Source: Chelatococcus sambhunathii (GTDB taxonomy: Bacteria > Pseudomonadota > Alphaproteobacteria > Rhizobiales > Methylopilaceae). Taken from it: 64,000 bases of DNA. A program made the position numbers and the translations under genes. The stretch spans positions 62,001 to 126,000 of the forward strand of contig JADBEO010000003.1 of the NCBI GenBank assembly GCA_031316315.1, given 5' to 3'. Below, one piece after another: positions 13,434 to 39,396 of this stretch. The notes beneath the pieces were generated by a model that was not told where the DNA came from, did not search any database, and worked only from the letters and a program-made list of their open reading frames with translations. The first letter of the stretch is position 1. Each line of letters starts with the position of its first letter.

Positions 13434-16112
13434 TCAGGCCGAAATCGCCTCCGCAACGCGCGTGGCCGCCAGCATCCGGCGGATCTCCGGCAGGCAGGAG
13501 CCGCAATTGGTGCCCGCTTTCGTCGCGGCGCCGATAGCGGCCGGTTCGCAGGCGCCCGCCGTGATCGCGCCTTCGATCACACCCTTGGCGACGCCATGGC
13601 AGGCGCAGACGAGCGGGCCGAGCGATGCGCCGGCGCTGGCGCGGCCGGCGAGCAGCAGGCCGCGCGTCTCGCTTTCGTTCAGAGGTTCGCCGAGCCGTCC
13701 GCGCAGATAGGTCCAGGCGCTCTCCTGCCGCTCCGGCCCGACGAACAGGCAGGCCTGAAGCACGCCGTCGCGGAACACCGCCGCCCGTTGGCGGCCACGC
13801 CGCAGGTCGGCGAACTCGACCACCTCGTCGCTTGGGTCGAGGTCCGGGATCACGTCGTCGAACAGAATCTCGCCGTCGGTCGCGAACAGGAGGCCGCTTC
13901 CGTTCGGGATGGCGGCCGTCGCCCACCATGCCCCTTCGGGCTTGTCGAGCGCGCCGCGCGAAAGCGCGAAGCCCTGTCGCTTGAACTTCGCCGGCCGGAC
14001 CGTGGCGGGGGTCGACTTCGCGTCCGGCTGGCCGGAAATCGGATCGACGCGGGCATGCACCAGCGCGCCGATCAGGCCGGAGGACGAAGTCTCCTGAGTC
14101 CAGTGGATCGCGGCGAACAGCGCGCCCTCGCGCGCGTCGGGCGTCACCCGCGCACGCAGCGTCGCCTCGCCATGCGCCGTGGCGACCGTCGCGAAGCCGC
14201 CGTCGACGACGCCGGCCTTCTCCGCGTCGACGGCTGAGATTTCCAGGAACGGCTCCGGCAGATGGCTGGACAGGCGCGGGCTTTTTCCGGTGCGCGTCAT
14301 CGTGTGCCACTGATCGCGGATACGGCCGGTATTGAGGCGAAGCGGGAAATCGCTCGACGGCCTCGCCGGGGCCTGCGGCGCCGCGACGGCGACGAAGCGG
14401 CCCCTGCCGTCGGCGGTGAAGAACCCGCCCTTGGCGAAGAAGCGCGTCTCGGTCCGCGCTCTGCCCTTGCGCGCCGGCCACTGCACCGGCTGAAGTCGAT
14501 CGTAGTCGCGGGTGTCGAGGGCGGCGAGCGCGCCGATGTCGAAGTCGCGCGCGCCGTCGTTTTCGAAGGCTGACAGCGCCGCATGCTCTCGAAACACCTC
14601 GCCGACCGTGCGCCAGCCGAAAGCCTCGCCATGGCCGAGACGCTTCGCCACCTGCGCGATCGCCCACCAGTCCGGCCGCGCCTCGCCGGGAAGCGCGAGG
14701 AACGGCCGCTGGCGCGAGATGCGTCGCTCGGAATTGGTGACCGTGCCGTCCTTCTCGCCCCAGGCGGCGGCCGGCAGGCGGATCTTCGCGCCGGCGGCGA
14801 GCGTGTCGTTGGAGGCGACGTTCTCCGAGACCACGAAATGATCGAGCCTGCCGAGCGCCTCCGCCACCGCGCCGGCGCGGGGCAGCGATGCGGCCGGGTT
14901 GGTTCCCATCACCCAAAGCGCGCGGATCTCGCCGCGCGCGACCGCCTCGAACATGTCGACCGCCTTGAGGCCGGGCGCCTCGGCCATGCGCGGCGCGTTC
15001 CAGAAGCGGCCGACCTTGTCGATCGAATTCGCATCGAAACCCATATGGGCGGCGAGCTGGTTCGCGAGCCCCCCAACTTCGCGCCCGCCCATGGCGTTGG
15101 GCTGCCCGGTCAGCGAGAACGGGCCCATGCCGGCCTTGCCGATCCGGCCGGTCGCGAGATGGCAGTTGATGATGGCGTTGACCTTGTCGACGCCGTCGGC
15201 CGACTGGTTGACGCCTTGGCTGTAGAGCGTGACCGTGCGTTCCGTCTCGGCAAACAGCGAGAAGAAGGCGACGATGTCGGCCTCCGCGACGCCGCAGACT
15301 CGCGCCGTAGCGGCGACGCTGGGCGCAACCTCCCTGGCGCGGGCGAGCGCGTCATCGAAACCCATGGTGTGCGCCTGCACATATGCAGCATCGATGCGCC
15401 CCGCATCGGCGAGATGTACGAGCAGGCCCGAGAACAGCGCGACGTCGGTTCCGCCTGCAATCTTGAGGTGAAGGTCGGCCTCCTCCGCGGTCGCCGAGAC
15501 GCGCGGGTCGATCACGACGATCTTGGCGCCGCGCTCGGTCTTCGCCGCCAGCATGCGCTGGTAGAGCACCGGATGGCACCAGGCCGCGTTCGAGCCCGCG
15601 AAGACCAGAAGGTCGGCGGATTCAAGGTCGCGATAGGTCCCCGGCACCGTGTCCGAGCCGAAGGCTCGGACGTGGCCGGCGACGGAGGACGACATGCAGA
15701 GCCGGGAATTGGTGTCGACGTTCGCCGAGCCAAGAAAACCCTTGAACAGCTTGTTAGCCGCGTAATAATCCTCCGTCAGCAGCTGCCCTGACAGGTAGAT
15801 GGCGATCGCCTTCGGGCCGTGGGTTTCAAGCGTCTGGCGAAACCCTTTGGCGACCGCGTCGAGCGCCGCTTCCCAGCTCACGCGCTCGCCGTCGATCTCC
15901 GGGTGCAGCAGCCTGCCCTCGAGCGACAGCGTCTCGCCCAGGGCCGATCCCTTCGAGCATAAGCGTCCGAAATTAGACGGATGATCTGGGTCGCCCACGA
16001 TCGTCGCGCCGCCCATGCGGTCGGGCTGGGCGAGCACGCCGCAGCCGACGCCGCAATAGGGACAGGTGGTGGCGATCGGCGCCGGGTTCGGATCGGCGGC
16101 ATGCACGTTCAT
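13434..16112 (-). CDS. nasA: Assimilatory nitrate reductase catalytic subunit
   Basis: This 892-residue cytoplasmic molybdopterin enzyme reduces nitrate to nitrite. An N-terminal 4Fe-4S site is formed by Cys17, Cys20, Cys24 and Cys52. The bis-MGD domain follows with typical segments (DTNSRLCMSSSVAGHVRAFG, GSNAAWCHPVLYQR, TGRIGKAGMGPFSLTGQPNAMGGREVG), then the molydopterin-dinucleotide-binding domain (LNTGRIRDQWHTMTRTGKSP). The last 60 residues form a BFD-like 2Fe-2S domain (CACHG...NCGSC) used for electron entry in NasA-type enzymes. It is the last gene of the nas operon, 178 bases after the flavoprotein, with a dispersed repeat in the gap. No Tat signal is seen, in line with an assimilatory role. 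Confidence 0.95.
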   Translation of the reverse strand: MNVHAADPNPAPIATTCPYCGVGCGVLAQPDRMGGATIVGDPDHPSNFGRLCSKGSALGETLSLEGRLLHPEIDGERVSWEAALDAVAKGFRQTLETHGPKAIAIYLSGQLLTEDYYAANKLFKGFLGSANVDTNSRLCMSSSVAGHVRAFGSDTVPGTYRDLESADLLVFAGSNAAWCHPVLYQRMLAAKTERGAKIVVIDPRVSATAEEADLHLKIAGGTDVALFSGLLVHLADAGRIDAAYVQAHTMGFDDALARAREVAPSVAATARVCGVAEADIVAFFSLFAETERTVTLYSQGVNQSADGVDKVNAIINCHLATGRIGKAGMGPFSLTGQPNAMGGREVGGLANQLAAHMGFDANSIDKVGRFWNAPRMAEAPGLKAVDMFEAVARGEIRALWVMGTNPAASLPRAGAVAEALGRLDHFVVSENVASNDTLAAGAKIRLPAAAWGEKDGTVTNSERRISRQRPFLALPGEARPDWWAIAQVAKRLGHGEAFGWRTVGEVFREHAALSAFENDGARDFDIGALAALDTRDYDRLQPVQWPARKGRARTETRFFAKGGFFTADGRGRFVAVAAPQAPARPSSDFPLRLNTGRIRDQWHTMTRTGKSPRLSSHLPEPFLEISAVDAEKAGVVDGGFATVATAHGEATLRARVTPDAREGALFAAIHWTQETSSSGLIGALVHARVDPISGQPDAKSTPATVRPAKFKRQGFALSRGALDKPEGAWWATAAIPNGSGLLFATDGEILFDDVIPDLDPSDEVVEFADLRRGRQRAAVFRDGVLQACLFVGPERQESAWTYLRGRLGEPLNESETRGLLLAGRASAGASLGPLVCACHGVAKGVIEGAITAGACEPAAIGAATKAGTNCGSCLPEIRRMLAATRVAEAISA

Positions 16113-17939: not shown

Positions 17940-19751
17940 TCAGGCCTTCTCGAGTTCGAACATGGTCTTGAGCGCGTCGATCTCGTGACGGCGCGTGAAG
18001 GCGGCGAAGGTCTCGGCCTCGCTCTCGCGATTGGCGAGGTAACCGCGCAGCATCTTCTCGACGACGGCCGGGCAATCCTCGCCCTTCACTTCAGAGACGA
18101 GGTCGCGGGCGATCGTGGCGTCGGTCCCAAAGCCGCCGCCGACGAGGATGTTGAAACCGTCGACGGTGTCTTCTTCGCCGACCGCCACCCGCGCGCCGAT
18201 CAGGCCGATGTCGCCGATGTAGTGCTGGGCGCAGGAGTGATGGCAGCCGGTCGCGTGGATGTTGATCGGCGTGTCGACGACGAGCCCGATCGCGTCGATG
18301 TGGGTCGCGATCTGGTCCGCAAAACCCTTGGTGTCGGCGGCGGAGAACTTGCAGCCGCGATTGCCGGTGCAGGCGACGAGGCCTGCGCGGACGTTGGAGC
18401 AGGCCGTGTCGAGACCGATGGCGCGGATCTTCTCCTCGACCTCAGCGACGAACTCGTCGCGGACGCCCGAGATCAGCAGGTTCTGCCAGACGGTCAGCCG
18501 GATGTCGCGGTCGCCGTAGTCCTGCGCGATGTCGGCGAGCGCCCGCATCTGCTCGCAGGACATGCGCCCGAGCTTGAGCGAGACGCCTATCCAGTTGTGG
18601 CCCGCTTGGCGTTGCGGGTGGACGCCGATATGCGCCATGCGGTCGCTCTCGGGCCGCGGCGCGAGGGCGCCCGCCGGCGCGCGCACGAGCTTGGCGCCGA
18701 GCAGCTTCTCGACCTCCTCGAGAAACTTGTCGAAGCCCCAGGCGTCGAGCACGTATTTGAGCCGCGCCTTGGCGCGGTCGGAGCGGTCGCCGTTCGAGAT
18801 GAAGACGCGCACGATGGCGTCGGCCACCTTGGTGGCTTGGTCCAGCGGCACGATCACGCCGGTGTCGCGTGCGAAGTCGCGATGGCCGGTGATCCCGCCG
18901 AGCGCCAGCCGCCACCAGACGCCCGGCTCGATCCCGTGCCCGTCAAGCACCTCGACCGCCTGGAAGCCGATATCGTTGGTGTCCTCGAGCGCGGCGATCC
19001 GCCCGGCGCCGTCGAAGGCGACGTTGAATTTCCTGGGCAGGCCGTAGAGCGAGCGGTCGTTGAGGATGTGGTGGTGCCAATCCTTGGCGTAAGGGCGCGT
19101 GTCGACGAGTTCCTGCGGATCGATGCCGGCGGTCGGCGTGCCAGTGACGTTGCGGATGTTGTCCGCGCCGGAGCCCCGCGCGGTGAGGCCAATGTCGACC
19201 AGGCCTTCGAGGAAGGCGGGGCCGTCCTTGGCGCCGATCTCGCGCACCTGGAGGTTCGCGCGGGTCGTCACATGGCTGTAGCCGCCGCCGAACTGTTCGG
19301 CGAGGTCGGCGACGCCGCGGAACTGCCAAGCCTTCAGGATGCCGTTGTGGATCCTGAGCCGGCACATGTAAGCGTCCTGCGTCGGCCCCACATAGAACAG
19401 GCCGTGGAAGCGAATGCGGAAGTCGTCGAGCTGCTTGGCGAACTTGCCCTCGGCCGCGAGCCCCTTCAGGCGGGCGTAGGCGTCGAACGGGTGCTCGTCG
19501 CGCTTGGCCTTTTCCTGCGCGACCAGCTTCTTGCCGGCCTTCTCCTGCCGGGCCATGGCCGCGAGGTGGATGGCGTCCGGTCCGGACGGGATCTGCTCCT
19601 GCGGCGTCGGCAGGGACTGGCCTGCCGCCTGCCCCTGGAACGGGACCTGTCCGCCGAAGCCGGCCGCGCCGCGCGATTCGCGGATCGCCTGCACGCCTGA
19701 GATGAAGCCTTCGAGATAGCGCTTCTGGTCGGGGGTGAAATCGCCGCTCAT
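17940..19751 (-). CDS. nirA: Siroheme nitrite reductase, NirA type
   Basis: This 603-residue enzyme reduces nitrite to ammonium with six electrons. Two ferredoxin-like half-domains alternate with siroheme/4Fe-4S domains. The cluster ligands lie in ACTGNRGCKFS and ATGCHHSCAQHYIGDIG (CxxxxxC and CxxxC). SHVTTRANLQVRE and RLTVWQNLLI are the family's substrate and siroheme contact segments. An N-terminal extension of about 90 residues begins FTPDQKRYLEGFISGVQ, nearly the same motif as in the next gene's flavoprotein, so the two may dock. It sits 10 bases after the FAD protein gene with GGAGG before the ATG. It is cytoplasmic; nitrite rather than sulfite as substrate is supported by the nas setting. 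Confidence 0.92.
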   Translation of the reverse strand: MSGDFTPDQKRYLEGFISGVQAIRESRGAAGFGGQVPFQGQAAGQSLPTPQEQIPSGPDAIHLAAMARQEKAGKKLVAQEKAKRDEHPFDAYARLKGLAAEGKFAKQLDDFRIRFHGLFYVGPTQDAYMCRLRIHNGILKAWQFRGVADLAEQFGGGYSHVTTRANLQVREIGAKDGPAFLEGLVDIGLTARGSGADNIRNVTGTPTAGIDPQELVDTRPYAKDWHHHILNDRSLYGLPRKFNVAFDGAGRIAALEDTNDIGFQAVEVLDGHGIEPGVWWRLALGGITGHRDFARDTGVIVPLDQATKVADAIVRVFISNGDRSDRAKARLKYVLDAWGFDKFLEEVEKLLGAKLVRAPAGALAPRPESDRMAHIGVHPQRQAGHNWIGVSLKLGRMSCEQMRALADIAQDYGDRDIRLTVWQNLLISGVRDEFVAEVEEKIRAIGLDTACSNVRAGLVACTGNRGCKFSAADTKGFADQIATHIDAIGLVVDTPINIHATGCHHSCAQHYIGDIGLIGARVAVGEEDTVDGFNILVGGGFGTDATIARDLVSEVKGEDCPAVVEKMLRGYLANRESEAETFAAFTRRHEIDALKTMFELEKA

Positions 19752-19761
19752 CGCCGCCTCC

Positions 19762-21006
19762 TCACGGCGTCGCCACGAAGGACCGGCCGAAGGCCAGGTC
19801 GTCGCGCATCTCGCCGAGCGGCGCGCCGGAGGCGATCAGGTCGAGATACCAGAGCGCGTCCGAGGCCTCGCCGACGAGGATCGCCCCGACCAGCCGGTCG
19901 TCGCGCATCACCAACTTGCGGTAATGGCCGTGGCCGGGGTCGGCGAGGGTGACGATGTCGTCGCCCTCCTCCGCCTCGACGGCGCCGGCCGAGAACACCG
20001 AGACGCCGGAGACCTTGAGATTCGTGGACAGCAGGCTGCCGGCGTAGGCGGCCTCCGCCTCGCCCGCGAGGTGGCGCGCGAGCGTCTTCGCGTGCTCGTA
20101 GGCCGGCGCGACCAGACCGTAGACGACGCCCGCGTGCTCGGCGCATTCGCCGATCGCATAGACATGCGGGTCCGAGGTCCGCATGGCGTCGTCAACGACG
20201 ATCCCGCGCCTGACCTCGAGCCCCGCCTCGCGCGCGAGGCCGGCGTTCGGACGCACGCCGCAGGACATCACGATCATGTCGGCCGGCAGCACCTCGCCGT
20301 CGGCGAGCTTCAGTCCCTCGACGTGAGCGTCGCCGACGATCTCGGCGCTCTGCGCCGAGAGGACGAAGCCGATGCCCTTCTTCTCGAGCTGGTGCCTCAG
20401 CGTCGCGGCCGCCTTCAGGTCGAGCTGCCGCTCCATGAGCTTGTCGAAGATGTGCACGACGGTCGTCGCGCAGCCGAGCTTTGCGAGGCCGTAGGCCGCC
20501 TCCAGCCCGAGCAGCCCGCCGCCGATCACCACGGCGCTCTTGTCCGGTCCCGACAGGTTCGCGAGCTTGGCCGCGTCGGCGCGGTCGCGGAACGTCACCA
20601 CCTCGGGGAGATGCGCGCCGGGCAGCGGCAGCCGGATCGGCTCGGAGCCGGTCGCGAGCACCAGCCGGTCGTAGGACGCCCAGCGGCCGTCTGTCAGGCG
20701 GACGGTCTTCTGCGCGAGGTCGATGCTCGAGACCTGCGCCTCGGTAAAGAGGCGGTAGCCGCTCTGTCCGTACCAGGAGCGGTCCTTCAGCGTCAGGTCC
20801 TCGTCGGCCGCCTCGCCGGCGAGCAGCGATGACAGCAACACGCGGTTGTAAGCCGCGTCCTTCTCAGCGCCGAGCACGGTCACGTCATACCGGCCGGGGC
20901 ATGCGGCGGTGAGCTCCTCGAGGAGCTTCAACGCGGCCATGCCGGCGCCGACGAGCACGATGCGCTCGCGCTCCGGCCGTTTCGTCGATGCGAGGGTCTC
21001 GCTCAT
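19762..21006 (-). CDS. FAD-dependent NAD(P)H oxidoreductase (NirB N-terminal-like)
   Basis: This 414-residue protein corresponds to the pyridine-nucleotide oxidoreductase half of NirB. The FAD motif is VLVGAGMAALKLLEEL and the NAD(P)H motif VVIGGGLLGLEAAYGLAKLG; LPADMIVMSCGVRPN and the YAIGECAEH motif follow. The Fe-S and siroheme parts of NirB are absent and provided instead by the separate nirA gene. The start MSETLAST at 21006 is preferred over upstream codons that would enter the leader. It is the first gene after the second ANTAR leader and is followed by nirA 10 bases later. It probably transfers electrons from NAD(P)H into the nitrite or nitrate reductase. Confidence 0.85.
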   Translation of the reverse strand: MSETLASTKRPERERIVLVGAGMAALKLLEELTAACPGRYDVTVLGAEKDAAYNRVLLSSLLAGEAADEDLTLKDRSWYGQSGYRLFTEAQVSSIDLAQKTVRLTDGRWASYDRLVLATGSEPIRLPLPGAHLPEVVTFRDRADAAKLANLSGPDKSAVVIGGGLLGLEAAYGLAKLGCATTVVHIFDKLMERQLDLKAAATLRHQLEKKGIGFVLSAQSAEIVGDAHVEGLKLADGEVLPADMIVMSCGVRPNAGLAREAGLEVRRGIVVDDAMRTSDPHVYAIGECAEHAGVVYGLVAPAYEHAKTLARHLAGEAEAAYAGSLLSTNLKVSGVSVFSAGAVEAEEGDDIVTLADPGHGHYRKLVMRDDRLVGAILVGEASDALWYLDLIASGAPLGEMRDDLAFGRSFVATP

Positions 21007-21088: not shown

Positions 21089-21137
21089 AAAAAGCCGCTG
21101 TCTCGACCCGCGTTCGTCTGCGTGTCGGTTCAGCGGC
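21089..21137 (-). terminator. Leader terminator of the nas reductase operon
   Basis: On the minus strand GCCGCTG (complement of 21131-21137) pairs with CAGCGGC (complement of 21094-21100). An inner CGAC/GTCG stem lies between, and a five-T run follows (21089-21093). It lies about 80 bases before the start codon at 21006, where an intrinsic terminator would block the operon unless antiterminated. It shares its 5' arm with hairpin P2 of the ANTAR element. Confidence 0.85.
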
Positions 21138-21162
21138 GATGCTGGCGCGCCCCTCTATGGGC
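21131..21162 (-). promoter_or_regulatory. ANTAR antiterminator RNA element (NasT target), reductase operon
   Basis: On the minus strand two short hairpins with six-base loops stand in a row. P1 is GCCC-ATAGAG-GGGC (21162-21149). P2 is CAGC-ATCGCC-GCTG (21144-21131). Both loops have A at position 1 and G at position 4, the defining feature of ANTAR-protein target RNAs. The 3' arm of P2 is part of the terminator's 5' arm, so P2 and the terminator exclude each other. NasT binding should favour read-through when nitrate or nitrite is present. Confidence 0.85.
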
Positions 21163-21208
21163 GAGTGGTCCAAACGTCATCGTCGACGGCGAACCACGTG
21201 ACAGCTCA

Positions 21209-21224
21209 TTCAAGACGCATGCCA
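21209..21224 (-). promoter_or_regulatory. Sigma-54-like promoter of the reductase operon
   Basis: The minus strand reads TGGCATGCGTCTTGAA, close to the -24/-12 consensus TGGCACG-N4-TTGCA. It lies 47 bases upstream of ANTAR hairpin P1, the same spacing as at the nrt operon. Transcription would start near 21196. Confidence 0.7.
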
Positions 21225-21360
21225 GCCGCCGGAACCGGCGGAATTCACTGGAATTCGAGCAGTTCTTTCCGGGAGCAGACCTCAGTCGGGACCGCCTAGG
21301 CGCACGGCGATTGTGCAGTGCGCCTAAAACGGGCGCCGGCCGTCGCCTCCGACGTTCGGA
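21225..21360. other. Upstream activating region of the nas reductase operon
   Basis: This intergenic DNA between nrtC and the sigma-54-like promoter has no gene. The block TTGTGCAGTGC at 21311-21321 is also found at 24801-24811 before the nrt promoter. The following TGCGC-N7-GGGCG is a weak match to an NtrC site. It is a candidate enhancer for NtrC. Confidence 0.45.
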
Positions 21361-22158
21361 TCAGGCCGCCTCCACGAAGCGGTGGCGCTCGTACAGGAAC
21401 TTGAGCACCGCCGCGCGGGCCGCGATGTAGGCGCGGTCGGAGACGAGCTCGAGCCGGTTCCGCGGCCGGGCGAGCGGCACGTCCAGCACCTCGCCGATCC
21501 GCGCCGAGGGACCGTTGGTCATCATCACGATCCGGTCGGAGAGAAGCACCGCCTCGTCGACGTCATGCGTAATCATCAGCACGGTGTTCTTCAGCTCGGC
21601 CTGGATCTGCATGACCTGGTCCTGCAGATGCGTGCGGGTCAGCGCGTCGAGCGCGCCGAACGGCTCGTCGAGCAGCAGCACCTTGGGCTGCATGGCGAGC
21701 GCCCGGGCGATGCCGATGCGCTGCTTCATCCCGCCCGAGATCTCCGCCGGGCGCCGGTCCTTGGCGTGCTCCATGTGGACGAGCTTGAGCTTGTGCATCG
21801 TCCAGTCGTGGCGCTCGGCCTTGGTCTTCGACCTGCCGAACACCTTGTCGACCGCGAGCGCGACGTTCTCGTAGCAGGTGAGCCAGGGCAGCAGGCTGTG
21901 GTTCTGGAACACGACGGCGCGGTCCGGGCCTGGTTCGTCCACCACCTTGTCCTGCAGGAACACGACGCCCTTGGTGGCCTTGGTGAGGCCGGCGACGATG
22001 TTGAGCAGGGTCGACTTTCCGCAGCCGGAGTGGCCGATGATCGAGATGAACTCGCCCTCGGCGACGTCCAGCGAGACGTCCTTCAGGACCTCGTTGGTCA
22101 TCGCCCCGCGCGAGAACGACTTGTCGACATGCTCGATCTTGAGAAACGGCTTGGTCAT
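21361..22158 (-). CDS. nrtC: Nitrate ABC transporter ATP-binding protein
   Basis: This 265-residue ABC ATPase couples ATP hydrolysis to nitrate/nitrite import. Walker A is GHSGCGKST; the Q-loop follows; the signature is ISGGMKQRIGIARAL; Walker B is VLLLDEPFGALD, with His in MITHDVDEA. The sequence is of the nitrate/sulfonate/taurine subfamily. It lacks the C-terminal NrtA-like regulatory domain of cyanobacterial NrtC and resembles the single-domain NrtD/NasD form. The start MTKPFLKI at 22158 follows nrtB after 14 bases. It is third in the nrtABC operon. Confidence 0.92.
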   Translation of the reverse strand: MTKPFLKIEHVDKSFSRGAMTNEVLKDVSLDVAEGEFISIIGHSGCGKSTLLNIVAGLTKATKGVVFLQDKVVDEPGPDRAVVFQNHSLLPWLTCYENVALAVDKVFGRSKTKAERHDWTMHKLKLVHMEHAKDRRPAEISGGMKQRIGIARALAMQPKVLLLDEPFGALDALTRTHLQDQVMQIQAELKNTVLMITHDVDEAVLLSDRIVMMTNGPSARIGEVLDVPLARPRNRLELVSDRAYIAARAAVLKFLYERHRFVEAA

Positions 22159-22172
22159 GGCTCTGTCCACCG

Positions 22173-23090
22173 TCACGCGTTGGCCGTGCCGCGCGTGACC
22201 GCGACGGCGATGAGGGCGACGATGCGGTCGAGCACGAAGCCGACCGCGCCGACGTAGACGAGCGCGAGGATGATGTCGCTGATGCGCGACGAGTTCCACG
22301 CGTCCCAGATGAAGAAGCCGATGCCGACGCCGCCGATCAGCATTTCGGCCGCGACGATGGCGAGCCACGACAGGCCGATGCCGATGCGAAGACCAGTGAA
22401 GATGTATGGCGCGGCCGCTGGCAGCATGATCTTCGAGAAATACTCGATCGGGTTGAGGCGCAGGACCTGCGCGACGTTCTTGTAATCCTGCGGAATGTTG
22501 CGGATGCCGACCGCGGTGTTGATGATCACCGGCCAGATCGCGGTGATGAAGATCACGAAGATCGCCGAGGGCTCGCCGTCGCGGAACGCCGCGAGCGAGA
22601 GCGGAAGCCAGGCGAGCGGCGGGATGGTGCGGAGCACCTGGAACACCGGATCTAGCCCCCGCAGCGCCCAGGTGGACGCGCCGACCAGCGCGCCGAGCGC
22701 GATGCCGGCGACCGCCGCGAGCGCATATCCGAGCGCGACGCGCTTCAGCGACGCGTAGAGCTGCCAGCCGAGGCCCTTGTCGTTGCCTCCGTTGTCGTAG
22801 AACGGGTTGGCGATCAGCTCCCAGGTGTCGGAGATCACGCGCGAGGGCGAAGGCAGCGACGAGGTCGGCGAAGAGCACAGCAGCTCCCAGAGCAGCAGCA
22901 GCAAGCCGACGGTCAGTAGCGGGGGCAGGAAGGTCGCCGCGGCGTCCATCATGCGGGTCTTCATCCGCGGCCCGAAGAACGGCTTCTTCGGGGCAGGCAG
23001 CGCGACCACCTTCGCGGAGGCCGGGGCCTCCGCCGGCTGGGCGGACTTCAGCGGCGTCACGTTCGACGCCGCGGCGGCGGTCTGTGTCAT
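22173..23090 (-). CDS. nrtB: Nitrate ABC transporter permease
   Basis: This 305-residue inner-membrane permease carries the binding-protein-dependent transport fold. A cytoplasmic N-terminus of about 50 residues is followed by six hydrophobic helices. The EAA-type loop (LDPVFQVLRTIPPLAWLPLSL, with the conserved Gly replaced) and the GLSWLAIVAAEMLIGGVGIGFFIWDAWN segment are typical of nitrate and taurine permeases. It lies between nrtA, 71 bases upstream, and nrtC, 14 bases downstream, on the same strand. Confidence 0.92.
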   Translation of the reverse strand: MTQTAAAASNVTPLKSAQPAEAPASAKVVALPAPKKPFFGPRMKTRMMDAAATFLPPLLTVGLLLLLWELLCSSPTSSLPSPSRVISDTWELIANPFYDNGGNDKGLGWQLYASLKRVALGYALAAVAGIALGALVGASTWALRGLDPVFQVLRTIPPLAWLPLSLAAFRDGEPSAIFVIFITAIWPVIINTAVGIRNIPQDYKNVAQVLRLNPIEYFSKIMLPAAAPYIFTGLRIGIGLSWLAIVAAEMLIGGVGIGFFIWDAWNSSRISDIILALVYVGAVGFVLDRIVALIAVAVTRGTANA

Positions 23091-23161
23091 CGGGCTCTCC
23101 GCGATTTCTGGTGTCGCCTGCGGGTCGCAGCGCGGCCGTTGGGCCGCGCCGGCGCGCTCCG

Positions 23162-24487
23162 TCAGGCCATGCGCTTGATGTCGAGGCTGGCGAGGTAGTC
23201 GCCGGGCTTCTCCGGGTCGAAGACCTTGCCGTCGAAGAACTTCTCGACGCCGCGCGAGGTCGAGGCCGGAATGTCGCTGACGCCGAGGTCCTTGGCGGCT
23301 TCGCGCCAGAGATCCTCGCGGTTCACCTTGTCGACCAGCGCCTTCACGTCGGTCGTACCGGGCAGGTAGCCCCAGCGGATGTCCTCGGTGATGAACCAGG
23401 CGTCGTGGCTCTTGAACGGGTAGGACGCGTGGTCCTTCCAGAAGTGCATGATGTACGGGCTGTTCTCGACCACGGGCTTGCCCGCGCCGTAGTCGAACTT
23501 GCCCTTCATCCGGTCGACGATGTCAGCGAGCGGCGCGCCGATCCAGTTGCGCTTGGCGCAGATGGCGGCGAGCTCTTCCTTGTTCTCCATCTTCTCGCAC
23601 CACTGCTGCGCCTCCATCACGGCGAGCAGAAGAGCCTTCGCGGCCTTCGGGTTCTTCTCGACGTAATCGGTGCGGAGCGCGAAGGCCTTCTCCGGATGCT
23701 TGTCCCAGAGCTCGCCCGTGGTGATCGCGGTGTAGCCGATCTTCTGGTTCTTCAGCTGCTCGTTCCACGGCTCGCAGACGCAGAAGGTGTCCATCGTGCC
23801 GACCTTCATGTTCGCCACCATCTGCGGGGGCGGCACGACGATCGTCTGGATGTCCTTGTTGGGGTCGATGCCGCCGGCGGCCATCCAGTAGCGGATCCAG
23901 AGGTCGTGGGTGCCGCCCGGAAAGGTCATCGCGGCCTTCACGTCCTTGCCCGAAGCCTTCTTCTTCTCGAGCGCTTCCTTGAAGGGCTTCGTGTCGAGAC
24001 CGAGCTTGAGATCGGCGTATTCCTGGCCGACCGAGATGCACTGGCCGGCGACGTTGAGGCGCGCCAGGATCGACATCGGCGTGCCGGCCTTGTTCTGCGT
24101 CACCGCGCCGGTCGTGATCAGGTAGGGCATGGGGGTGAGGATGTGCGCGCCGTCGATGCCGCCGCCGCCGGAGCCGAGCACGATGTTGTCGCGCGTCGTG
24201 CCCCAGGAGGACTGTTTCGTGACTTCGACTTCAGTCATGCCGTACTTGTCGAAGAAGCCCTTCTCCTTGGCGACGAAGAGCGGCCCGGCGTCCGTCAGGG
24301 CGATGTAGCCAAGCTTCGCCTTGGTCGTCTCTGGTCCCGCGCCCTGCGCGAAGACGCCGGAGGGCGAGAGAATTCTGGCGGCCGCGAGCGTCGCGGCGGC
24401 ATAGCCGCCGACTTGCAGCACGCTCCGGCGGCTGACGCCGGACAGAAGGGCGTTCGCGACGTCTGACGTCTTGGCGTCGTGGCTCAT
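23162..24487 (-). CDS. nrtA: Nitrate ABC transporter periplasmic binding protein
   Basis: This 441-residue protein binds nitrate/nitrite outside the membrane. The twin-arginine signal SRRSVLQVGGYAAATLAAARI near residue 20 suggests Tat export. The mature part follows the NrtA/CmpA pattern: KAKLGYIALTDAGPLFVAKEKGFFDKYG, DGAHILTPMPYL, MTFPGGTHDLWIRYWMAAGG, CEPWNEQL and ITEDIRWGYL. It is the first gene after the first ANTAR leader and heads nrtABC. The paralogue at 24840 is the cytoplasmic sensor NasS. Nitrate rather than bicarbonate specificity is inferred from the nas context. Confidence 0.94.
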   Translation of the reverse strand: MSHDAKTSDVANALLSGVSRRSVLQVGGYAAATLAAARILSPSGVFAQGAGPETTKAKLGYIALTDAGPLFVAKEKGFFDKYGMTEVEVTKQSSWGTTRDNIVLGSGGGGIDGAHILTPMPYLITTGAVTQNKAGTPMSILARLNVAGQCISVGQEYADLKLGLDTKPFKEALEKKKASGKDVKAAMTFPGGTHDLWIRYWMAAGGIDPNKDIQTIVVPPPQMVANMKVGTMDTFCVCEPWNEQLKNQKIGYTAITTGELWDKHPEKAFALRTDYVEKNPKAAKALLLAVMEAQQWCEKMENKEELAAICAKRNWIGAPLADIVDRMKGKFDYGAGKPVVENSPYIMHFWKDHASYPFKSHDAWFITEDIRWGYLPGTTDVKALVDKVNREDLWREAAKDLGVSDIPASTSRGVEKFFDGKVFDPEKPGDYLASLDIKRMA

Positions 24488-24565
24488 TTCCGGCTCCGCT
24501 GACGGCCTTCAGGGCCGCGTGATCTTCAAATGAGCCGGCCTCCAGACGATCGGATGCCGGCGAAC

Positions 24566-24613
24566 AAAAAAGCCGCTGTCTCGACATGCGTGATCGCGTG
24601 TCGGTTCAGCGGC
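24566..24613 (-). terminator. Leader terminator of the nrtABC operon
   Basis: On the minus strand GCCGCTG (complement of 24607-24613) pairs with CAGCGGC (complement of 24572-24578). An inner CGACA/TGTCG stem lies between, and six T residues follow (24566-24571). It is about 80 bases before nrtA and nearly identical to the terminator at 21089-21137. The 5' arm overlaps ANTAR hairpin P2. Confidence 0.88.
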
Positions 24614-24638
24614 GTTGCTGGCGCGCCCTTCGCTGGGC
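24607..24638 (-). promoter_or_regulatory. ANTAR antiterminator RNA element (NasT target), nrt operon
   Basis: On the minus strand P1 is GCCC-AGCGAA-GGGC (24638-24625) and P2 is CAGC-AACGCC-GCTG (24620-24607). Both six-base loops carry A1 and G4, as in NasT/NasR/EutV target RNAs. P2's 3' arm GCTG is part of the terminator stem. Stems match the second leader almost exactly while the loops differ except at the key bases, which supports selection on structure. Confidence 0.88.
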
Positions 24639-24684
24639 AGTGCGGTCATGACGTCTGCGCCGACGCGGACCGCGCAGCCGTCCA

Positions 24685-24700
24685 TTCAAGAGGCGTGCCA
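24685..24700 (-). promoter_or_regulatory. Sigma-54-like promoter of nrtABC
   Basis: The minus strand reads TGGCACGCCTCTTGAA, matching the -24 element exactly and the -12 element in four of five bases. It is 47 bases upstream of ANTAR hairpin P1, exactly as at 21209-21224. The predicted transcription start is near 24672. Confidence 0.75.
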
Positions 24701-24808
24701 GGTGCCGTGGAGCAGCCTCGACCGCTGCAATTGGAACGATTTGAAGGACGCGCCCGATCAGGCCCGATTATTCGTGCGAGCCAAAAAGCGCGCCCGCTTT
24801 TTGTGCAG

Positions 24809-24839: not shown

Positions 24840-25961
24840 TCAGCCGGACTGAACGAGCCCGCCGATCTTCAATCCAAGCGGATCCGCCGCCAGGGAAATC
24901 GGGCCGCCGATCGCGCTGTCGAACGCCGACGGACGATAGACCGCCGCCGCGAGAGCCTCCTCGTCGGGGCCGTCGCCGGCCTGCCCCCAGCGCGCCATTT
25001 GGCCGTGGAGCCAGCGGGCGTGCCGCTCGTCCGGCCGCATCGCCCCGTCGCGCGCAAAGACGAGGTATCGGTCGTCCGTCAACGCCCGATCTCCGACGCC
25101 GGTCGAGAGGCGGCCGTCCAGGGCGCGCCGGATGATCGCGGGAGCGACGTCGAGCCTGCTGGAGGCGCCAAGCAGTTCCGCCGCCTCCTGCCGGTGCTCG
25201 GACCGCTCGAGCCATTCGCCGGCGGCGACCATGGCCCGGATGAGCCGCGCCGCGAGCTCAGGCCGCTCGCCCAGCCAGGATTCACGCACCGCGAGGACCT
25301 TCTCCGGACAGCTCGTCGCGAAGTCGACGCCGAGATGCAGGATCCGCCCAAGGCCGAGCTCCACCGCGACGGAATTCCACGGGGCGCCGACGCAAAAACC
25401 CTCGACATGCGCGTTTTCGAGCGCGTCGACCATGTAGGGCGGCGGCACCACCGCGAGACGCACGTCTTCGTCCGGGTTCAGCCCCGCCGCCGCGATCCAG
25501 AGCCGAAGCTGGTAGTTGTGGGTGGAAAAGGGAAAGGTCATGCCGAGAACCGGCGGCTGTTCGCCATTGGCGCGGCGGTCTTCGACGAGCCGCTTCAGCG
25601 CAGCGCCGGTCGCGCGCGGATCGCCCGGATCGCTGCCGTCGGGCAGCCGCTCCATCAGTTCGTCGTGCAAGTGCGGCGCCAGCGTCACCGCGTTGCCGTT
25701 GAGGTTCAGGGCGAGAGGAACGGCGAGCGGCGCCTTGATGGAGTTCAGGCCAAGGGAGGTCGCGATGGCGAGCGGCGCGAGCAGATGGGCGGCGTCGAAA
25801 TGGCCAAGCGTCAGCCGGTCGCGAATGTTCGACCAGGAGATTTCGCGGAACAGCTCGATTTCGATCCCCTCCGCCGCCGCGAAGCCGAGATCGGCGGCGA
25901 CGATCGGCACGGCGGCGTCGACCAGCGGGATGAACCCGATCTTGACGTGGTCGAGGCTCAT
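24840..25961 (-). CDS. nasS: Nitrate/nitrite sensor NasS (NrtA-like, cytoplasmic)
   Basis: This 373-residue protein has the fold of the NrtA binding protein but begins directly with MSLDHVKIGFIPLVDAAVPIVAA and has no signal peptide, so it stays in the cytoplasm. Segments such as FDAAHLLAPLAIATSLG, MTFPFSTHNYQLRLWIAAAGLNPDEDVRLAVVPPPYM and FCVGAPWNSVAVELG match the ligand-binding core. In known NasS/NasT systems NasS holds the ANTAR protein NasT inactive and releases it on binding nitrate or nitrite. Its ATG overlaps the nasT stop by four bases (ATGA), consistent with stoichiometric co-expression. A longer upstream frame was rejected. Confidence 0.9.
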   Translation of the reverse strand: MSLDHVKIGFIPLVDAAVPIVAADLGFAAAEGIEIELFREISWSNIRDRLTLGHFDAAHLLAPLAIATSLGLNSIKAPLAVPLALNLNGNAVTLAPHLHDELMERLPDGSDPGDPRATGAALKRLVEDRRANGEQPPVLGMTFPFSTHNYQLRLWIAAAGLNPDEDVRLAVVPPPYMVDALENAHVEGFCVGAPWNSVAVELGLGRILHLGVDFATSCPEKVLAVRESWLGERPELAARLIRAMVAAGEWLERSEHRQEAAELLGASSRLDVAPAIIRRALDGRLSTGVGDRALTDDRYLVFARDGAMRPDERHARWLHGQMARWGQAGDGPDEEALAAAVYRPSAFDSAIGGPISLAADPLGLKIGGLVQSG

Positions 25962-26563
25962 TTCAGAAGCTCCGCGGCGGTAACGACGGCCTGGGCGATC
26001 TCCGAGATCTTCTTTTTCTCGTTCATGGCGACGGTGCGAAGCAAAGCATAGGCCTGTTCCTCGCCGATGCCCTTCTGGCGCATCAGAATTCCCTTGGCGC
26101 GGTCGACGACCTTGCGTTCCTCGAGCTGGCTCTTGGCCTGGTCGAGCTCGGCCTTCAGCCGCGAGAAGGCGTTGAACCGGCTGACCATGGTGTCGAGGAT
26201 CGGCTTCACGCGCTCCTTCTTCAGCCCGTCGACGACATAGGCCGAGACGCCGGCGTCGATCGCCGCCTCGATCGAGGAGCTGTCCGACTGGTCGACGAAC
26301 ATGCCGACCGGCCGGCGCACGCTCCGGCTCATCTGGAACATCTGCTCCAGCACGTCGCGCGAGGGGTTGGCGAGGCCGATCAGGATGACGTCGGGATCTA
26401 TGGCGTAGATGCGCTCGAGGAGGTTCGCCCGGTCGGAGATCCGCAGGATCGTCGCGTGGCCCGCCTCTCGCAGCCCCTCCTCCAGGATCGCGGCCCGCAC
26501 CGGGCTCTCCTCGACGAGCGCGATCTTGAGCGGGCGGTCGGGCGTTTTCGGGCGATCGGCCAT
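25958..26563 (-). CDS. nasT: ANTAR-domain antiterminator NasT
   Basis: This 201-residue protein has an N-terminal receiver-like domain (LKIALVEESPVRAAILEEGLREAG, DPDVILIGLANP, GVSAYVVDGL) whose acidic pocket and phosphoacceptor region are atypical. It is followed by a coiled coil and a C-terminal ANTAR domain (SQLEERKVVDRAKGILM, GIGEEQAYALLRTVAM) that binds paired hexaloop RNA hairpins. Such hairpins are present in the two leaders at 21.1 and 24.6 kb. ATG 26563 with GGGGACG upstream is preferred; an in-frame start 24 bases earlier is possible. It forms a unit with nasS, probably with its own promoter upstream. Confidence 0.92.
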   Translation of the reverse strand: MADRPKTPDRPLKIALVEESPVRAAILEEGLREAGHATILRISDRANLLERIYAIDPDVILIGLANPSRDVLEQMFQMSRSVRRPVGMFVDQSDSSSIEAAIDAGVSAYVVDGLKKERVKPILDTMVSRFNAFSRLKAELDQAKSQLEERKVVDRAKGILMRQKGIGEEQAYALLRTVAMNEKKKISEIAQAVVTAAELLK

Positions 26564-26731
26564 CGGCGTCCCCGCGCGCGGCGTCATCACGCCGGCGCTT
26601 CATGTCGGAGACGTTGCAGTAAACGACGTTCCGCCGTCTCGCGACCCCGCGTCGCACGAGTGCGCGCGGAAGGGCCGGGCGCGGACGACGTCCGCCGGCG
26701 TTTGCGCTATCGCGATCCGTTCAGGCGAAGC

Positions 26732-37494: not shown

Positions 37495-38295
37495 GTGAAA
37501 CACTTTACAGCCTATATCGACGAAGCCGGGGACGAAGGCCTTGGCAAGCTAGCTTCCGGCTCCATAGGCGGCCAGTCGCGATGGTTCGTCTTGGGTGCCT
37601 GCATCGTCAACCATGACGGTGACCTTAAGCTACCGGCATGGAAGGACGCCATAATTGCGCGCTTCCCCAATAAACAGCGCAGAGATCTTCATTTCCGCGA
37701 TCTAAAACACGATCAAAAGGTAGTTGTAAGCCAAGAGATTGCTAAATTGCCTATCGGCGCTTGTGTAGTTATGTCTCACAAGGCGACGTTGATCGGAACA
37801 AAATACGAAGCGATCTACAAGCGAAAGGGCCATCTGTACAACTATCTGCTTCGTTGGATGCTAGAGCGTATAACATTCATATTGGAGCGTGAGAGCCTAC
37901 CTGAGCCAGCTTGCCTGAAAATCGTTTTCTCTCGACGAGCCAGCACCGACTATCAGAAAATGAAAGACTACCTCTATCTTATTAAGAACGAGAGGGAGAT
38001 GTTCACGCCCATCAGACGAATAAGATGGAACGTTCTCAACATAGAGGATATCGTAGTTGAAAATCACTCCAAATGGGCCGGCCTTCAGATAGCAGACTGT
38101 ATTACAAGCGCCTATTTTTCTGCTGTCGAGCCAAACATATACGGCAATTACGAGCCGACATATGCCACTCTTTTGAAAGAAAAACTTTTAACTACAAACG
38201 GTGTTAGTTTGAATTGGGGCCTTACTCCGGTCCCATCTCTTGGGGGCTGTCGCGCGGACGATCGACAGTACGCGTTTTTGCAGTCGCACCGATGA
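37495..38295 (+). CDS. DUF3800 domain protein
   Basis: This 266-residue protein starts with GTG at 37495 and the diagnostic N-terminal YIDEAGDEG, an acidic motif on the first strand of an RNase-H-like fold. Further conserved parts are WFVLGACIV, LHFRDLKHDQ, ASTDYQKMKDYL and a late WAGLQIADCITSAYFSAVE with Asp. DUF3800 proteins are thought to be nuclease-like and occur often in mobile and defence-rich regions; no activity is assigned. Base composition is lower in GC than in core genes. It is flanked by the small charged protein and the IS1595 transposase. Confidence 0.82.
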   Translation: MKHFTAYIDEAGDEGLGKLASGSIGGQSRWFVLGACIVNHDGDLKLPAWKDAIIARFPNKQRRDLHFRDLKHDQKVVVSQEIAKLPIGACVVMSHKATLIGTKYEAIYKRKGHLYNYLLRWMLERITFILERESLPEPACLKIVFSRRASTDYQKMKDYLYLIKNEREMFTPIRRIRWNVLNIEDIVVENHSKWAGLQIADCITSAYFSAVEPNIYGNYEPTYATLLKEKLLTTNGVSLNWGLTPVPSLGGCRADDRQYAFLQSHR

Positions 38296-38457
38296 GAAAG
38301 AAGTGGGCAGGCCCCCGGCTCCTGATTCACACCGCTACGGATGCTGCCGCCCGTGAGGGCAACTCGGAGATGTTCCGGCGCCTGCCTGCCCGCTAGAAAG
38401 ATATCAATTCGGCTATAAATTTCAAGCACTTACTAAGTCCTTGAGCGGACTCGTCTT
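38296..38457. other. Intergenic gap between DUF3800 gene and transposase
   Basis: This stretch of about 160 bases holds no gene I can support. I looked for the terminal inverted repeat of the IS1595 element here and beyond 39396 and found no convincing match. Confidence 0.4.
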
Positions 38458-39396
38458 TTACGCAACGGCGTCGTTATCAGTCCGCCGATACGTCAGACGC
38501 TTGCCGACGATGCCTGCTGCCGCGCGCTGCGTGCGCATCTGGTCGTTAACACCAAGCGCCACGCGGGCGTTGTAGCGGAACTCAAACTCCGCAAGGTAGC
38601 GGTGAAGGTGCTTCTCAGCGCAGTGCTGATAGACGCCCTTCATGCCGCGCTTGAAGATCGAGAAGGAGCCTTCGACGGTGTTCGTCGTGATCGGGCCGCG
38701 AGCGTATTCCTTGCGGCTGTGGTTGATGACGTGATGCTGCGCGAAGTCCTTGTCGAGGCCGAGATACCAGCGGCCTTCGTCGGACATGATGACGGCCTCG
38801 CGGGCGACGGTGGCGCGGATGATCGCCTGTAGCTCGCCCTTGGTCGTGCCCTCAGTGTGGAACATGCGGGTAGAGCCGCCGCGCTCCACCAGAGCGAATA
38901 CGGTGTTCTTGTAGCTGGACACGCCGTGGCCGTAGCGCTTCGGCTGGCCTTCAAGGCGACCGATGAAGGTCTCGTCGACTTCCACCACGCCGCCGCCGCC
39001 GCCCAGAGGGGCCAGATCGCCAGCGCGCATGGCCTCGCGGATGCGATGGGCCAGGAACCACGCCGTCTTGTACTGGACCTCAAGGATGCGGTGCAGCTGA
39101 TGAGCGCTGATGCCCTTCTTGGAGGAACACATCAGGTGGACGGCCTGCAGCATCTTATGGAGCGGCATCCGGGCGTGCTCGAACACGGTGCCGACCTTGA
39201 CGGTGAACTGCTTCTTGCAGTCGCCGCAGCGGTGAAGGCCCATGCGGACGCGAGCCGCAGCGTTCGGCTTGATCTTGGAGATCCGGCCCATGCAACCGCA
39301 GTGCGGGCAGATCGGCTTACCGTTCCAGATCGTGTTCTCAAGCCACTCAAAAGCGGCGGCTTCGTCGTGGAACTGGGGCTGAGAAAGGACGGACAT
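38458..39396 (-). mobile_element. IS1595-family transposase (ISXO2-like)
   Basis: This 312-residue transposase has an N-terminal zinc ribbon (CPHCGCMG and CGDCKKQFTV), a helical middle part (KMLQAVHLMCSSKKGISAHQLHRIL) and the ISXO2-type catalytic domain. The acidic residues fall in VEVDETFIG, IMSDEGRWY and NTVEGSFSIFKRG. The frame is intact. Its G+C content is closer to the host core than that of the genes to its left, so it may have arrived separately. Terminal inverted repeats and a target duplication could not be identified by eye, so element boundaries are not given. It marks the right part of the island. Confidence 0.88.

Follow-up and report, generated by a model that had tools for sequence, protein, structure and literature searches.

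The stretch analysed here, called the window, comprises 64,000 nucleotides of Chelatococcus sambhunathii (GenBank assembly GCA_031316315.1, contig JADBEO010000003.1, positions 62,001 to 126,000; all positions below are counted from the first letter of the window). It carries a minus-strand cluster for nitrate uptake and reduction, and our subject is the pair of leaders that precede its nrtABC and nas reductase operons. The reading frames leave 352 bases between nasS and nrtA and 354 bases between nrtC and nasB, and each gap holds the same series of elements in the same order: an NtrC-like site, a sigma-54-type promoter pattern (TGGCAYG-N4-TTGAA), a hairpin P0, two hexaloop hairpins P1 and P2, and an intrinsic terminator. 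From promoter to T-run, the two blocks are 74% identical.

In the nrt block, the NtrC-like site (TGCAC-N7-GGGCG, 24791–24807) is part of an element that recurs in the nas block and is followed by the promoter pattern TGGCACGCCTCTTGAA (24685–24700), P0 (loop GGCGCA, 24642–24673), P1 (GCCC-AGCGAA-GGGC, 24625–24638), P2 (CAGC-AACGCC-GCTG, 24607–24620), and the terminator (GCCGCTG...CAGCGGC with six T, 24566–24613). The corresponding features of the nas block are TGCAC-N7-GTGCG (21301–21317), TGGCATGCGTCTTGAA (21209–21224), P0 (loop GACGAT, 21165–21197), P1 (CGCCC-ATAGAG-GGGCG, 21148–21163), P2 (CAGC-ATCGCC-GCTG, 21131–21144), and GCCGCTG...CAGCGGC with five T (21089–21137). In both leaders the 3' arm of P2, GCTG, is also the end of the terminator 5' arm GCCGCTG, and P2 and terminator are mutually exclusive. 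P1 and P2 stand 18 bases apart in each leader, and a scan of both strands of the window for two adjacent hairpins with A1/G4 hexaloops (stems of at least 4) ahead of a T-run returned only these two sites. The window and the blocks of L033–L044 contain, after the NtrC-like site and ahead of the −24 box, a loosely conserved GTTC-N6-GAAC-like palindrome, for example CGTTCCAATTCGAACG in genome G005.

An earlier note, made by a model from the letters alone, had described this common order and the sharing of the P2 arm with the terminator, and both descriptions hold on reading the two blocks. Its 47-base interval between promoter and P1 does not: the distance from TTGAA to the P1 GCCC is 46 bases in both leaders (50 to the P1 loop), and these bases are occupied by P0, a hairpin the note had overlooked, leaving no empty spacer.

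The genes nasS and nasT do lie directly upstream, as that note had stated. NasT (25958–26590, minus strand, like all genes of the cluster) combines a receiver-like domain (PF00072, 24.5 bits, below the cut-off of 30.2) with an ANTAR domain (PF03861, 72.4 bits) and is a predicted RNA-binding antiterminator; its structurally solved relatives are annotated as a response regulator (6wsh), a putative antiterminator (1s8n), and a nitrate regulatory protein (4akk). NasS (24840–25961; PF13379, 239 bits) is NMT1-like and a predicted nitrate/nitrite sensor, so that an ANTAR response-regulator-like protein is encoded beside an NMT1-like sensor, the genes overlapping by 4 bases. Aligned by eye, the usual phospho-acceptor position of NasT seems to be the G of DVILIGLANP, which would fit control through NasS binding rather than phosphorylation. 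A second ANTAR-domain protein is encoded elsewhere in the genome (41 bits; L002, G000:C5:90272-90418).

Downstream of nasS, the transporter is encoded by nrtA (substrate-binding protein, 23162–24487; PF13379, 352.6 bits), nrtB (permease, 22173–23090; TIGR01183, 329.2 bits), and nrtC (ATPase, 21361–22158; TIGR01184, 345.1 bits), the latter two over cut-off. The closest named relatives of NrtA, at 93–84% identity, come from Hansschlegelia and Methylopila, the latter classified in the Methylopilaceae (Hyphomicrobiales, Alphaproteobacteria). Behind the second leader follow a NirB-like pyridine-nucleotide flavoprotein here called nasB (19762–21006; PF07992, 211.2 bits; TIGR02374, 414.7 bits, below cut-off), a nirA-family nitrite reductase (17940–19751; NF007126, 959 bits, over cut-off), and a molybdopterin oxidoreductase with a BFD [2Fe-2S] domain (13434–16112; PF00384, PF04324); the cluster also encodes a sulfite-reductase-flavoprotein-like protein. 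The molybdopterin oxidoreductase is likely the assimilatory nitrate reductase, a name drawn from context because all its NCBIfam matches fall below cut-off; weighing against it, the best match is formate dehydrogenase alpha (TIGR01591, 443 bits), ahead of nitrate reductase NasC (NF047855, 400 bits).

For comparison, we collected leaders across the order. Searches at 40 nasT loci and the window yielded 38 sense leaders (L047, with an E value of 0.0045 and no visible leader, was left out), and a later model search added 71 of 88 matches after removal of 13 from genomes already included, 3 near-copies of L191, and the false positive L202, giving 109 leaders from 96 genomes. Two cultured relatives, Hansschlegelia zhihuaiae (L035/L206) and Methylopila jiangsuensis (L039/L207), have a leader of this type. 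In the leader counts, the label f1 denotes the genus of the window plus G016; G014 and G015 belong to the same family but carry separate labels and were counted outside. Across the whole genome, model R1 returned the two leaders and six further rows that were their antisense echoes or had E values above 0.1. A putative third leader matched by model R2 (C81:5014-5107) was rejected as a chance match, lying antisense inside a serine dehydratase gene. The order-wide survey with model R2 left out most matches weaker than ∼1e-6, together with two stronger ones, G041:C281, which starts at a contig end, and G099.

Anatomy, covariation, and the adjacent nasTS genes support the assignment of both leaders as dual-hexaloop ANTAR-target leaders with predicted NasT binding. 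We aligned 25 of the 38 leaders from the nasT loci and scored two structures. P1 with P2 paired in 89.5% of cells, with both-side changes in 6 of 10 pairs, and P1 with the terminator in 95.7%, with such changes in 7 of 13 pairs; by element, these pairs numbered 4 of 6 in P1, 2 of 4 in P2, and 3 of 7 in the terminator. The covariation scores of 0.328 and 0.346 exceeded all 500 shuffles (means 0.167 and 0.189) and every slid control (0.056–0.116 for P1 with P2), comparisons that are not probabilities because the aligned leaders are related. Alignment column 47 shows covariation in both of its pairings, GC to AU within P2 (10 of 25 leaders) and CG to UA within the terminator (6 of 25), which fits mutually exclusive P2 and terminator folds. 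Whole leaders were also more stable than their shuffles (z −2.31 and −2.43), and in both predicted folds the terminator was formed and P2 was not, as expected without protein.

Several observations weigh against this assignment. The Rfam search that the earlier note had proposed found no family over either leader at gathering thresholds, and at E ≤ 10 returned only implausible weak matches in the region. For the nrt leader, the minimum-energy fold disrupts P1, which the centroid retains, and the isolated P1–P2 pieces (43 and 46 bases) were not notably better than shuffles (z +0.76 and −1.09). The counts of pairs with both-side changes were equalled by 17 (P1 with P2) and 10 (P1 with terminator) of the 500 shuffles, the outer P2 pair 35–48 is unpaired in 13 of 25 leaders, and model R2 matched nothing at E ≤ 1e-4 in 185 of 297 genomes from the order. 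The claim that the loops keep A1 and G4 holds for all four hexaloops of the window, but in 6 of the 16 genus leaders the P2 loop starts with G, so that A1 is not invariant.

The promoter layer proposed in the earlier note gains support from its conservation. A TGG-type sigma-54 pattern, scored 16–119 bases before the P1 loop, is present in 86 of the 109 leaders, whereas the reverse complements give 2 and 100 shuffles average 0.58, with no shuffle above 3; it occurs in 16/16 genus leaders and 70/93 outside the genus. The −24 part is TGGCACG in 71 leaders, TGGCACA in 8, and TGGCATG in 7, and the distance to the P1 loop is 39–55 in 75 of the 86 (47–53 within the genus). At the −12 part we found TTGAA (20), CTGCA (17), GTGCA (11), CTGCT (11), TTGTA (8), and others; variants such as CTGCA and TTGCA place canonical-GC boxes at the same position in relatives. 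The genome encodes one rpoN and an NtrC (722 bits, over cut-off) that carries the GAFTGA motif. Six occurrences of TGGCAYG-N4-TTGMW were found in this genome (reversed pattern, 1), namely the two leaders, three TTGCW sites, and a TTGAA site ahead of a P-II (glnK-like) gene. This last site reads TGGCACG-N4-TTGAA and shares the non-consensus −12 box of the leaders (L103, G000:C9:78573-78588).

The sigma-54 consensus is TGGCAC-N5-TTGCW, with GG at −24 and GC at −12. The window promoters fit it at −24 and depart from it at −12, where TTGAA has GA for GC, and 23 of the 109 leaders have no promoter match. Both points would suit an explanation in which these are real ANTAR leaders transcribed from another, sigma-70-type promoter, the sigma-54-like element being fortuitous or minor. 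We regard this as unlikely, since the element is conserved at a constrained distance and near-absent on the reverse complement, the same TTGAA variant precedes the P-II gene, and P0 begins at the start site that the element predicts: placed by the usual spacing of sigma-54 promoters, +1 falls at ∼24674 and ∼21198, at the foot of P0 in both leaders. A sigma-54 layer on both leaders is thus a prediction that we consider very likely.

For NtrC itself, the sites are less distinctive. Measured against the consensus of TGCAC-N7-GTGCA type, NtrC-like patterns occur in the window at chance level (12 seen, 12.7 expected with one mismatch), and the nrt copy has one mismatch while the nas copy is exact; NtrC sites called from the pattern alone were accordingly rejected. 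The longer upstream element shared by the two blocks was seen twice with 0.32 expected and was reached by 4 of 100 shuffles, a comparison in which the pattern was drawn from these same two sites. Its GCA-N2-GCACAA core is found in 13 of the 16 genus blocks.

We then considered the origin of the second leader in 13 sampled genomes of the genus. The nas leader is present in three, namely that of the window (G000), G010, and G012, which form a clade with 100% support in a tree of five concatenated proteins, with G008 as sister (96%). Each of the other ten has one strong leader (by model R1 in nine, by model R2 in G011), and nasB follows directly after nrtC, within 25 bases in 7 of 10. The nrtC–nasB junctions of G008, G009, G007, and G001 were read and showed no leader. 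Identity of the nas leaders is 74–82% with the nrt leaders of these three genomes and 60–71% with the ten other genus leaders. In the leader tree the nas leaders group together (support 70; G000 with G010, 97), but many nodes of this short tree are weak (24–70%), a point against the duplication reading. Homology between the blocks extends upstream to the shared element and, judged by eye, downstream into the bases that precede the start codon.

Identities, tree, and synteny support the earlier proposal that promoter and leader were duplicated as a module, whereas its argument from exact spacing fails: spacing varies among relatives, with 48 and 52 bases between promoter and P1 loop in the two leaders of G012 alone. 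The nas leader is most likely a copy of the nrt promoter-leader block, inserted at the nrtC–nasB junction in an ancestor of the three sister genomes, and the insertion appears to have split one operon into two. Alternatively, both leaders could be old and one lost in most of the genus. Double leaders do occur elsewhere (18 of 112 matching genomes, including G000 and G012, have at least two model R2 rows), and in G220 and G278 (family f6) each leader finds its best match in another genome rather than in its own partner. We nevertheless judge this scenario very unlikely, as the nearest relatives of the nas leaders are the nrt leaders of the same clade, the models find no second leader in the ten other genus genomes, seven junctions are too short for one, and four that were read, including that of the sister G008, show none.

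Paired leaders are also found in other genomes of the order: L067 (G022), L142/L147 (G220), L151/L156 (G278), and L128/L144 (G293). A best-match comparison covered the f6 genomes and G293 and left out 4 of 30 leaders, one each of G000, G010, G012, and G022. The two leaders of G293 are mutual best matches (76%, compared with at most 65% to others), which suggests an independent duplication, and such duplication thus seems to have happened more than once; in G183, a leader from another genome matches as well as the partner does (57% each). Leaders in the nrtC–nasB gaps of G102 and of G014 and G015 (family f1) were considered and rejected, as these gaps gave only loose, isolated single-element matches with no series of promoter, hairpins, and terminator, and may be coding.

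Taken together, we hold it highly probable that both leaders are two-input switches, combining NtrC/sigma-54 initiation with NasT antitermination, and that the nas leader arose by duplication. Signalling between NasS and NasT, the binding of NasT and of NtrC, and initiation by sigma-54 are carried over into this scheme from characterised relatives. Under nitrogen limitation, NtrC and sigma-54 would start transcription at both leaders; nitrate or nitrite would likely free NasT from NasS, as reported in Paracoccus denitrificans (PMC3795266, in the part consulted), and freed NasT would hold P2 and prevent the terminator from forming. The reductase genes would have a promoter of their own at the nas leader, and polymerases arriving from the nrt promoter would face another terminator under NasT control before reaching them. 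Nitrate uptake and reduction genes would thereby likely be switched on solely under nitrogen scarcity with nitrate available. A simple attenuator that works independently of NasT, for instance one coupled to translation, would agree with the terminator as the stable predicted fold but is highly improbable, given that the P1 loop shows the conservation needed for ANTAR recognition (A1 in 86, G4 in 100, and both in 85 of 109 leaders) and that nasTS is adjacent.

P0 may add a third element to this switch. Among the 86 promoter-bearing leaders, 77 have a segment of 18–45 bases between +1 and P1; these segments fold better than shuffles (mean z −1.59, 30/77 in the lowest 5%), compared with a mean z of −0.09 and 7/77 for equally long control segments upstream of the promoter, so that a 5' hairpin can be counted among the frequent components of these leaders. 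P0 can be read as a hexaloop hairpin in 36 of the 86, of which 27 have a purine at position 1 and G at position 4. Outside the window's genus and G016, this applies to 21 of 69 leaders (6.0 in shuffles), and among 19 distinct family-loop combinations there, A1 with G4 occurs in 7 (8.1% expected, P 5e-4) and a purine with G4 in 11 (14.7% expected, P 2e-5), with the qualification that the combinations are not fully independent and the criterion was chosen after seeing examples.

Further points speak against P0 as a NasT site: position 1 is G, not A, in both P0 loops of the window, many P0 loops of the genus can close as tetraloops, and most leaders have no hexaloop at this position. Given these caveats, a third NasT site is a lead rather than a result, and P0 as a universal ANTAR hexaloop was rejected, the hexaloop register being found in only 36/86 and other loop sizes being common. 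The minimal ANTAR site has been redefined as a single hexaloop, with a dimer proposed to bind P1 before P2 (PMC8934654, as far as the excerpt extends), which makes an extra recruiting hairpin plausible. We tentatively raise the possibility, doubtful as it is, of a three-hairpin ANTAR switch, in which P0 at the transcript start would load NasT before P1 and P2 are made and commit the polymerase to antitermination before it reaches the terminator; the duplication would then have set two such checkpoints in series. A simpler alternative to recruitment is that P0 serves as a 5' stem-loop protecting the mRNA. Among the matches listed in a search of titles and abstract openings of the open-access literature, with subscription papers outside it, neither a P0-like hairpin nor the spacing from a sigma-54 promoter to an ANTAR leader was described.

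Elsewhere in the window, a DUF3800-VII RNA is matched by Rfam (60.1 bits, 38301–38390, minus strand). It sits immediately beyond a DUF3800 gene encoded on the opposite strand (37495–38295, plus strand, 45 bits) and adjoins an IS1595-type transposase (38458–39396, minus strand, 117 bits).

The leader mechanism is mostly of a kind already known from nas and eut leaders. Leaders of the NasT, NasR, and EutV types, Ntr control, and, for Pseudomonadota, a predicted control of nitrate ABC transporters by sigma-54 are covered across PMC5424462, PMC6759348, PMC3369931, PMC8934654, PMC4724949, and PMC12316311, of which, as for all comparisons below, excerpts were used. The nasA leader of P. denitrificans (PMC5424462) resembles those described here in having nasTS directly upstream, additional Ntr control, and an intergenic hairpin needed for nitrate induction together with an attenuating hairpin. 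It differs in that the mutated NtrC site lies before nasT and the nasA site is called ‘as yet unidentified’, whereas here sigma-54-type promoters stand on the leaders, of which there are two. The Klebsiella nasF leader (PMC5424462, PMC3369931) likewise combines Ntr control with nitrate/nitrite antitermination through an A1/G4 hexaloop, but relies on a single sensor-antiterminator, NasR (NIT-ANTAR), and one operon, in contrast to NasS plus NasT in the window.

In Bradyrhizobium diazoefficiens (PMC6759348, PMC4724949), NasT controls nirA and the narK operon, and NasT hairpins are predicted in the leaders, as here; however, the narK operon is located apart from nasTS-nirA, and the word promoter is absent from PMC6759348. 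The EutV leaders of Enterococcus faecalis (PMC3369931, PMC8934654) share the A1/G4 hexaloops of P1 and P2 and the position of P2 inside the terminator, and four dual-hexaloop leaders occur within the one eut gene cluster. They respond to ethanolamine through phosphorylated EutV, and in these excerpts neither sigma-54 nor a P0-like hairpin is described.

Set beside these systems, P0 is the novel lead, and its possible role in NasT loading can be set against the published single-hexaloop binding model. The coupling of a sigma-54-type promoter to ANTAR antitermination on nitrate genes is documented here order-wide, in leaders that match no Rfam family and for which a covariance-supported alignment is provided. 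The window's clade offers a probable recent duplication, caught where the regulatory block alone was copied, apparently splitting an operon.

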